Below, in pieces: positions 2,628 to 6,677 of a stretch of 32,420 nucleotides of DNA. The notes beneath the pieces were generated by a model. It saw only the letters and a program-made list of their open reading frames with translations. It was not told where the DNA came from and ran no database searches. Numbering within the stretch: position 1 is the stretch's first letter; the number at the start of each line of letters is the position of its first letter. The translations under genes were made by a program, and so were the position numbers. This stretch comes from Terriglobia bacterium (lineage in GTDB: Bacteria > Acidobacteriota > Terriglobia > UBA7540), in the NCBI GenBank assembly GCA_030040315.1, contig JASHTY010000041.1, forward strand, positions 1-32,420, in the 5' to 3' direction.

Positions 2628-2730
2628 CGCTGGCTGGCGCAGACACGATTTTGGTGTCTGCGATTTGCAAACCCCCCACCTGAACTCGCATTGAGGAAAC
2701 GCAGACGTTGAAAGGCATGTCTGCGGCAGC
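2628..2730. repeat. MITE/REP-like element, copy A
   Basis: CGCTGGCTGGCGCAGACACGATTTTGGTGTCTGCGATTTGCAAACC...TTGAAAGGCATGTCTGCGGCAGC. Near-identical to copy B (4706..4804). Ends are inverted (GCTGGCGCAGACA / TGTCTGCGGCAGC, 12/13). Two internal hairpins: CAGACAC/GTGTCTG and GCAGAC/GTCTGC. Confidence 0.75.
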
Positions 2731-2779
2731 CGACCGGGTGTTCAAACCCAAACGCGGGTGGGGAAACGCGCGTACTGCG

Positions 2780-4615
2780 CTACTTCCCGCCGGCCTGCTG
2801 CAACGCCGCGCTAATGTAGGGATAATCGTGCGCGAGGGCGAGTGCCGTCTGGCCTTTCTTGTCTTTCAGGTTGGGATTGGCGCCGGCTTTCAGCAGTTCG
2901 GTCACCGTTGAGGGATCGCCGAAATCAATCGTTGCGGCGTACATGAGCGGTGTATAGCCGAAGCGGTCGACGGCATTCACGTCCGCGCCGGCGGCGATCA
3001 GCGCCTTCGCGGCCTCTGTCTGGTGCGCCACGACTGCCCAATCCAAGGCCGTCATGCCGTCGGGGTCGGTTTCATGAACATTCGCTCCGCCCTTGATGAG
3101 CGCCCTCAGCACTTCCGGATCGCCGAACGTGACGGCGTCGAGCAGGGGACTGGTGGGAAACATTCCGATGAGATCCATCTTCTGGTTCACGTCGGCGTGG
3201 TGATTGAGCAAAAGGGCGACATTGTCCCGATCATTCGACATGGCGGCCAGGAAAAGTGGTGAGGCGTCAAACTGGGCACCCTTTCCGGGATTCGCCTCCG
3301 CTCCGTGGTCAAGCAACAATCGCACTCCCGGAGCCGAGCCGAAATAAGTTGCAGTCACCATCAGGGCCGTAAAGCCGGATTTGGCTTTCGCTTGCACATC
3401 CGCCCCTCGGTCGATGAGCAATTGCATCTTGTCGACGTTTGGCGCGGCCATCATCAGCAGAGTCGTGCCCTCCGGGGTTTTGCTGTTGGGGTCAAGGCCC
3501 GCGTCAAGTTGCGCCTTCAGTTCCGCCGCCGTTCCAAATAGCGCAGTTTCCATCCACGGCTTCAGGCCGGTGGGCGTGAGCACGGCGGGAGGTTGCGGGT
3601 AAAACGGGTTGGCAGCTTTGGGCAATGCCAGCATCAGCGCCATCGCAGCCCAGCATGCGCCGGCGGTCGAAATGTATTGGTCGTGCCCGTAAGGATAGCC
3701 GGACTCAATGTATGGCGGGCTCACGCTGGCGGGCGAGACTTGCCGCGTATGCACGTGCCACGTCCCATCGGCTTCCTGGGTGGAGAGCAGGTATTGCAGC
3801 CCCTTTTGCCAGGGCGCGTCCGTGATTGGTACGCTTCCGGCTTCGTTGAGCGCCGCCAAAGCCTCACCGGTGGAATAGGCGTCGGAAGGCATGTGGGGCA
3901 ACTCACCCCAGCCGCCATCGGACCGCTGCAAGGCCAGCAGTTCCTGCGACGCGCGGCGAATATCGGACGGGTTTGCATTCGCAAAGTGCAGGCCGAAGAG
4001 GCGGAATGTGAAGTCTTCGGTGCTGTGTGGCTCGGTGGTTAGCAGCCACTTGCGCGCGCGTGCTGAGCGCTCCTCGGTTTCCTTGGCAAGCTGAGGGGGC
4101 ATGTACAAATGCATCGCTCGCAATGCCACGGCAGTGGCGGTGAAACGGCTGTAGGACTGCGGCGGGCGGTCATCGCCGGTCGGCCATTGACCATCGGGCC
4201 GCTGCCAGGAGGCGATTCGGCGGGCAAATACTGCAGATATCAGATTGGGTTTCACTCCCACCGAATGCGCCGCCACCAGCGTCCAGCCATCCGACGGCGC
4301 CGGGTCAATCAGCATGGGGTCCTGCACGGCGTGGTCGACGGAACTCAGGTCTGTGGTGCTCACAAACGCCTTGGCGGCCACCTGACTGGCTGCGGCTTCG
4401 TCAACCGGCACTCCGCGCTCGCGCGCCACGTGCTCCATCAGCAAGGGGAGACCGTGGTCGTGGCATGAGAAGCACTGCATCACCTGGGCGAACCCGGATG
4501 AACCCTTCTGCACCATCGCCACCGCACGCGTGGCAGCGGAACGAATCTGCTCCTGCGATGCGGCCTGTGCATGCATCACGGGAACCAGCAGGAAAATCAA
4601 AAGTGCTCGACGCAT
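2780..4615 (-). CDS. exported protein: signal peptide, single CxxCH motif, squalene-cyclase/prenyltransferase-like alpha/alpha-toroid repeats, and C-terminal ankyrin repeats
   Basis: N-terminus MRRALLIFLLVPVMHAQA. CFSCH. QxxDGxW-like repeats (SWQRPDGQWP, LLALQRSDGGWGE, LLSTQEADGTWHV). Multiple ankyrin units (GTTLLMMAAPNVDKMQLLIDRGADV, DGMTALDWAVVAHQTEAAKALIAAGADVNAVDRFGYTPLMYAA). Confidence 0.85.
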   Translation of the reverse strand: MRRALLIFLLVPVMHAQAASQEQIRSAATRAVAMVQKGSSGFAQVMQCFSCHDHGLPLLMEHVARERGVPVDEAAASQVAAKAFVSTTDLSSVDHAVQDPMLIDPAPSDGWTLVAAHSVGVKPNLISAVFARRIASWQRPDGQWPTGDDRPPQSYSRFTATAVALRAMHLYMPPQLAKETEERSARARKWLLTTEPHSTEDFTFRLFGLHFANANPSDIRRASQELLALQRSDGGWGELPHMPSDAYSTGEALAALNEAGSVPITDAPWQKGLQYLLSTQEADGTWHVHTRQVSPASVSPPYIESGYPYGHDQYISTAGACWAAMALMLALPKAANPFYPQPPAVLTPTGLKPWMETALFGTAAELKAQLDAGLDPNSKTPEGTTLLMMAAPNVDKMQLLIDRGADVQAKAKSGFTALMVTATYFGSAPGVRLLLDHGAEANPGKGAQFDASPLFLAAMSNDRDNVALLLNHHADVNQKMDLIGMFPTSPLLDAVTFGDPEVLRALIKGGANVHETDPDGMTALDWAVVAHQTEAAKALIAAGADVNAVDRFGYTPLMYAATIDFGDPSTVTELLKAGANPNLKDKKGQTALALAHDYPYISAALQQAGGK

Positions 4616-4705
4616 GGGCTCTCCTTACGAAAACTGGACTTGAATTGATGGATATTGTGCATCACGAGGACCAAATTCGCAATCCCGCATTGTAGCGCTC
4701 CTTCC

Positions 4706-4804
4706 CGCTGACTGGCACAGACACGATTTTTAGTGGCTGCGTTTTTGCAAACCCTCATCTGAACTCGAGGAATCACGGACATTGAAAGGCATGTCTGCGC
4801 CAGC
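4706..4804. repeat. MITE/REP-like element, copy B
   Basis: CGCTGACTGGCACAGACACGATTTTTAGTGGCTGCGTTTTTGCAAACC...ATTGAAAGGCATGTCTGCGCCAGC. Same orientation as copy A at 2628..2730. Confidence 0.75.
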
Positions 4805-4878
4805 GGGGCGGCGCGCGCCCAATCCCTAACTGATAGCGGGTGGGGACACCTGTGCTACAACGCTGCTAAAATGCCGAA

Positions 4879-5600: not shown

Positions 5601-6677
5601 TCATTTCACAGCCACCACCGGCCCGGCCGCCTCCTCGCGAACTTGCTTCAACGTGGCAATTGGGATTTTGAGGAACATCTCCACAATGTGCGGATCAAAC
5701 TGCTTCCCGCTGCACCTTTCTATTTCCGCCACCGCCGCTTCAAATCCCGGCGCTTTGCGATAGCTGCGGTCGGAAGTGAGGGCATCCAGGGTATCGGAGA
5801 TGGTAAAGAGCCGGGAACCGAGGGGAATCTGCGGGCCTTTCAAACCGTCCGGGTAGCCCGACCCGTCGAATTTTTCGTGATGGTGACGAACAATTGAGCT
5901 GGCGGGGCGAAGGAATGGAACGCGCTTCAGGATCTCGTCTCCAACGACGGGGTGCTTGCGCATTTCCACCCATTCTTCCTCCGTCAGTTTGGCGGGCTTC
6001 AGCAGAATCGCGTCCGCCACGGCAATTTTTCCGATGTCGTGCAGCAATGCGCCTTGTTCCAGGGACGGCATCAGCGCCGGCGGGTAGCCGGCCTTGCGAG
6101 CCAGAAAGCGAGTGTAGGCGCGCACGCGATGGGAATGCGCGGAGACTTCATGCTCCCGTGCATCGAGAGCCGCCACCAACGCTTCCAGGGTCATCAGGTA
6201 ATTGGATTCCAGCTCACTGAGTGCCACTTCGATCTCCCGCGTGCGACGCTGAATACTGGATTCAAGCGAGCCCCGGTAGGCACGGGCCTGCCGCAGCGTC
6301 ACCACATGATCGAAAGCGCGCGCCACCGAGCGCGTTACTTCCTCCGCCACCAGCGGCTTGACCAGAAAGTCCTGCGCCTGCATGCGCAGCGCGGTGATCA
6401 CGGTTTCAACCTGAAGGGCTCCGGTTACCAGGATGAACCCCACGTCCCAGCGGCTCTGCTGCGCCATGGAGAGCAGGTCGAGCCCGGAGGCGCCGGGCAT
6501 CCAAACGTCGCATACAATGATGTCGAAGTCGCCACTCTCAATGGATTCCAGAGCACATGCGGCATCCGCGGCTTCCCCCACGTGGGAGGCTATGGGGCGC
6601 AGAGCCTCCTTGAAGAACATGCGCACCGCAGAGTCGTCGTCAACGACCAGGATCTTGGGAAGAGTTCGGGTCAGCAT
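5601..6677 (-). CDS. response regulator with receiver and HD-GYP output domains (probable c-di-GMP phosphodiesterase)
   Basis: Receiver ILVVDDDSAVRMFF...DIIVCDVWMPGASGLDLL; HD-GYP HDIGKIAVADAILLKP, HHHEKFDGSGYPDGLKG, RLFTISDTLDALTSDRSYRKA. Confidence 0.93.
   Translation of the reverse strand: MLTRTLPKILVVDDDSAVRMFFKEALRPIASHVGEAADAACALESIESGDFDIIVCDVWMPGASGLDLLSMAQQSRWDVGFILVTGALQVETVITALRMQAQDFLVKPLVAEEVTRSVARAFDHVVTLRQARAYRGSLESSIQRRTREIEVALSELESNYLMTLEALVAALDAREHEVSAHSHRVRAYTRFLARKAGYPPALMPSLEQGALLHDIGKIAVADAILLKPAKLTEEEWVEMRKHPVVGDEILKRVPFLRPASSIVRHHHEKFDGSGYPDGLKGPQIPLGSRLFTISDTLDALTSDRSYRKAPGFEAAVAEIERCSGKQFDPHIVEMFLKIPIATLKQVREEAAGPVVAVK

Follow-up and report, generated by a model that had tools for sequence, protein, structure and literature searches.

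REPIN-like repeats with a variant foot beside a toroid/ankyrin gene in a Terriglobia genome, and their probable spread by a RAYT

The window, a stretch of 32,420 nucleotides from a soil acidobacterium of the Terriglobia, contains a gene for a 611-aa protein (2780..4615, minus strand) flanked by two repeats of about 100 bases, copy A at 2632..2731 and copy B at 4710..4804, both on the plus strand. The protein combines a CFSCH motif of the haem-type CxxCH kind with ankyrin repeats and toroid repeats of the squalene-cyclase-like sort, and its conservation extends to several relatives. An initial annotation of this DNA had reported the two repeats in the same orientation at 2628..2730 and 4706..4804; they are present there, about 81% identical to each other and, as it also stated, without coding capacity for any protein, although their limits are better placed at the positions that we give. 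Copy A is a REPIN-like element in which a REP unit is followed by a spacer of 37 bases and a second REP unit in inverted orientation. Its left unit (2632..2662, plus strand) has the foot GGCTGG and the stem CGCAGACAC/GTGTCTGCG, and its right unit (2700..2731, minus strand) has a decayed foot, GGCTGC (CTGC), and the stem CGCAGAC(A)/(C)GTCTGCG. Copy B has the same organization but is more decayed: the left unit (4710..4741, plus strand) has the foot GACTGG and a mismatched stem, and the right unit (4774..4804, minus strand) reads GCTGG CGCAGACAT...ATGTCCGTG. The inverted ends noted earlier are therefore real, but every one of them is a hairpin of its own, in A and B alike. A second dispersed palindrome lies downstream of both copies on the plus strand (GCGGGTGGGGA... 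at 2754..2770 after A and GCGGGTGGGGACACC... at 4836..4852 after B). The palindromic repeat GCGGGTGGGGACACCCGCGCTACA is also found 3' of the RAYT unit described below (G000:C420:688-712), as well as 3' of A and B, elsewhere in the same genome (G000) and in the relative G005.

The genome in question is a metagenome-assembled genome (MAG) of 5.39 Mb in 636 contigs, estimated to be 73% complete. A BLAST comparison of the repeat with this genome, as proposed in the initial annotation and run with copy A as the query, recovered about 10 relatives of near full length along with numerous partial ends, which makes the A/B pair part of a dispersed family. The annotation had named the existence of just two copies as evidence against its reading; the core hairpin pattern, GGCTGGCGCAGA-N4..20-TCTGCG, instead occurs as 67 exact units in this genome, whereas the reversed control pattern has none. 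Diagnostic 18-mers likewise gave 2 and 3 matches in the window, against 0.07-0.11 expected by chance. Of 37 genomes searched from the same bacterial family, our own among them, 30 have the pattern, as against none of 24 genomes from outside that family. An empty site is seen on contig C380, where a 4.35-kb stretch with three members of the repeat family is missing in G005, G006, and G001, the two flanking genes being 10-30 bp apart in all three. This contig also carries two other families of short dispersed repeats (L124, G000:C380:20500-28000, at 2041-2130 and 6455-6535), with numerous matches throughout the genus.

Each member has the anatomy of a REP doublet. In the REP unit, the hairpin CGCAGAxxx...xxxTCTGCG is immediately preceded on its 5' side by the foot GGCTGG, whose core is CTGG, and the complete element comprises one unit, a spacer, and a second unit in inverted orientation. 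About 43 such inverted doublets could be read in the loci of this genome, with spacers mostly of 24-60 bases and reaching 135. Because the search pattern fixes the outer stem alone, the next three inner positions offer a fair test of pairing: across 104 units, 93.6% of the inner stem cells are paired, against 55.1 +/- 2.5% when partners are shuffled. The stems fall into the subtypes CTC/GAG, GAT/ATC, CAC/GTG, CAT/ATG, and GCG/AGC, and doublets often combine two of them, such as CTC with GAT, or CAC with CAT in A and B. Within the subfamily of A and B, 96.4% of the stem cells are paired and no covariation is found, since its stems hardly vary; the pairing signal comes from the comparison between subfamilies. 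Thus, the family displays the inverted doublets, paired hairpins, and dispersed multicopy distribution of REPINs, but its CTGG foot takes the place of the canonical GT[AG]G, and we accordingly file it as a variant and call it REPIN-like.

Three genes coding for Y1_Tnp proteins were identified in the genome, and the REP-associated (Y1) transposase anticipated in the initial annotation is among them as an intact RAYT between hairpin units of the same kind. This protein, encoded on contig C420, is 183 aa long, scores 110 bits against NF047646 (cut-off, 80), and falls below the cut-off of the IS200 profile (40.4 against 55 bits). Its catalytic motifs are intact, with HUH represented by HFH and Y---NP by YMHNNP, and the best fold match of its structure model (18 homologues; pLDDT of 85) is 4er8, the E. 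coli RAYT bound to a REP hairpin. Inverted REP units lie directly outside the gene (C420:1-34 and 655-688), and the 12 homologues in relatives that come closest to it (56-89% identity) are likewise bracketed by REP units, whose stems vary together with the RAYT lineage. The named relatives with a matching RAYT are Terriglobia or Acidobacteria MAGs.

These RAYTs multiply together with their ends. The REP-RAYT-REP unit is present in 2-3 copies of 89-97% identity in each of the genomes G001, G016, G030, and G035, so that in these four the RAYT is not a single-copy gene that does not move as a unit; one copy was seen in our own genome. In G001, G016, and G030, the identity between copies breaks off exactly at the outer REP edges or no more than a few bases away from them, into unrelated flanks that show no evident target duplication; G035 has a less sharp left edge. 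Internally deleted units also occur in G016 (L126 and L127, on G016:C251 and C287, respectively), where residues 1-38 are joined to residues 145-182; one of these has an open fused frame and the other has a stop.

On the basis of these observations, the family was very probably spread by a RAYT, an HUH-Y1 enzyme of the TnpA-REP kind. The ends of the C420 RAYT carry CTCC stems, while A and B carry CAC and CAT, and no RAYT with exactly the A/B type of ends was found, the MAG being 73% complete. A and B might have been moved by the C420 RAYT acting on related hairpins, or by a sister RAYT that has been lost or lies in the unassembled quarter of the genome. Taken together, we consider it highly likely that A and B are old, partly decayed members of a REPIN-like nonautonomous mobile family that was spread by a RAYT and that did not carry the gene between them.

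The "MITE/REP-like" label of the initial annotation was apt: the repeats are REP doublets, and a bracketed RAYT is present in the same genome. That they are instead MITEs of a DDE transposase, with their inverted ends serving as ordinary terminal inverted repeats, would suit the size of about 100 bp and the inverted repeats of about 13 bases at the ends. However, the stem bases match inside each end and often differ between the two ends: on the inner bases of doublets, 91% of the cells pair locally, as opposed to 63% end to end. As local pairing holds even where the two ends of an element differ, they are best viewed as local hairpins and not as DDE-type terminal repeats. The same ends are found on RAYTs, and no target duplication is evident by eye at A, B, or the flanks of the family, with no exact empty-site junction for either copy. 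We therefore rejected the DDE-MITE reading on the pairing and regard it as very improbable. A somewhat better, though still improbable, alternative is that the hairpins no longer move and are retained because they serve the host, as a terminator or in mRNA stability or supercoiling. The hairpins of A and B fold stably (z-scores of -2.7 to -3.1), both copies are decayed as mobile units, and their placement, with A following one gene and preceding another of the same strand and B between divergent genes, would be compatible with such a role. Against this, an Rfam scan of A and B gave no match, and the dispersed multicopy family, its empty sites, and its association with a RAYT call for mobility, at least in the past.

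The initial annotation had also raised the possibility that the two copies, which flank one gene exactly, delimit a 2-kb inserted or mobilized cassette. The exact flanking is true on the map, and both the shared orientation of A and B around one accessory-looking gene and a gene context on the left that differs from that of relatives would fit a composite unit that moved the gene. The flanking by itself is unremarkable: when about 41 doublets are scattered at random, at least one pair falls within 2.1 kb in 47% of the trials, although 3 such pairs are seen against 0.6 expected, a rough comparison given that the doublet positions were compiled by hand. Orthologues of the gene are present in seven relatives (G005, G008, G016, G001, G031, G018, and G003), none of which has REP units beside it in the flanking DNA examined. 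The G005 orthologue, which is 85% identical, has the methyltransferase and HD-domain regulator of the window as its neighbors, with no copy B in between; the stretch of approximately 4678..4853 that includes copy B is absent from the orthologous site (G005:C154). This is the outcome that the annotation had set as counter-evidence, a gene at this locus in a relative without the flanking copies, and it holds on the B side, although the gap in G005 could be a deletion instead of an empty site. On the A side, no empty site was found among the relatives examined. The SDR operon to the left of the gene is present in G003 and G001 without the 611-aa gene in the flank examined, which places copy A at a synteny break, but we do not count this as evidence of mobilization, such breaks being common at this divergence. 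Further, the identity of A to B (81.6%) is no closer than that of A to a copy on C454 (80.2%, to which A is nearly as close). The composite cassette was thus rejected on synteny, since the gene stays with its right-hand neighbors in G005 without copy B, and we give it hardly any credence; judging from gene order, the gene is a resident that was not carried in by A and B and is not a mobile cassette. The annotation had treated independent insertions or a duplication as equally possible; we favor separate insertion of each copy, or local copying of a single element, over the cassette. Within the favored explanation, one of the two copies might have arisen locally from the other, B from A or A from B, by copying or duplication that carried the GGGTGGGG palindrome along. 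A and B are mutual best matches that share spacer words, and, among ten copies compared, this palindrome follows A and B only (at 128 and 132 bases, counted from where the element begins). Conversely, besides the comparable closeness of the C454 copy, a tree gives no support for a sister relationship of A and B, and the second palindrome recurs elsewhere, such that coincidence is possible; we hence view local copying as possible but unlikely.

The likely mobility of the REPIN-like family can be conceived by analogy with characterized RAYTs, which bind single-stranded DNA, cut beside the hairpin, and rejoin it (PMC8266576). The RAYT would recognize the foot and hairpin on single-stranded DNA and cut beside them, with the element then reinserting without target duplication. 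A and B would thereby have landed on either side of the resident toroid/ankyrin gene, one in each intergenic region, through independent insertions or through the local copying of a single element. In being dispersed inverted REP doublets of about 100 bp whose units also flank a RAYT, the elements resemble REPINs with their RAYTs (Bertels and Rainey 2011, PMC3116915). They differ from those in the CTGG foot, as against GT[AG]G, in numbering tens of copies and not hundreds, in the frequent joining of two stem subtypes in one doublet, and in the multicopy RAYT units of several relatives. A further parallel is provided by the TIRYTs and TIRtrons (Di Nocera et al. 2013, PMC3733652), which include an acidobacterial group of RAYT-like genes whose flanking inverted repeats have no GTAG foot; in Koribacter versatilis, one such inverted repeat is a dispersed family (PMC3733652). 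Going by the published description, the repeats studied here differ from those of TIRYTs in being plainly REP-like hairpins with a one-base variant of the foot. The HUH-Y1 transposase, subterminal hairpins, lack of any evident target duplication, and internally deleted copies are also shared with the IS200/IS605 elements, but the C420 protein passes the REP_Tyr_transpos cut-off and fails that of IS200.

The foot merits separate consideration. The canonical REP foot is GT[AG]G (PMC6006769), also given as GTAG (PMC3733652), whereas that of the present family is CTGG, which is a new aspect of these elements. In a tree of 29 RAYTs, those with CTGG feet and one with TTGG form a single clade (support of 100/99), and RAYTs outside it with an assignable foot have GTGG or GTAG. 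Position 129 of the RAYT alignment, which aligns with E100 of the E. coli TnpA-REP, a residue among those discussed for GTAG recognition (PMC6006769, PMC8266576), is P in 13 of the 14 clade members, T in the lone TTGG member, and D in all 14 sequences outside. Positions 10, 11, 14, and 73 also separate the clade, the first three of them within the β1 region, which is reported to contact the foot (PMC8266576). We hypothesize from this sequence pattern that the change at residue 129 might have caused the foot switch, a link that draws on one switch and one further change only. A search across the phylum, in which 3 of 396 genomes gave a match at E <= 1e-25, turned up no further case of an independent switch, and the genome of origin also has 19 GTAG/GTGG palindromes with related stems. 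Whether these strands combine is, in our estimate, evenly balanced: the clade may be a mobile IS-like RAYT whose REP-RAYT-REP units multiply whole and shed internally deleted and REPIN-size derivatives, and whose foot went from GTGG to CTGG (once TTGG) through the residue matching E100 (position 129, where P or T replaces E/D) together with the β1-region changes at 10, 11, and 14. If so, it would constitute a natural series for reading the foot recognition code of RAYTs.

Few repeats are commoner in bacterial genomes than REPs and RAYTs, and the family bears on how RAYTs are matched to their REPs and whether they can still behave as transposons. Its RAYTs form a graded set in which the cognate feet and stems are known, one switch of the foot is well supported and has a candidate residue, and copies within a genome show sharp REP edges. 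Beyond this family, the third Y1_Tnp protein of the genome (G000:C184; L031:191-1231) reads HCL where the HUH motif would stand (NHCLMVL) and thus looks catalytically dead. A RAYT-like gene at G000:C407 (L033:985-1797) lies between inverted copies of another palindrome, of the CGTGGCACGGGCTTCCAGCCCGTG type, with which it perhaps makes up another RAYT/repeat pair of this genome.
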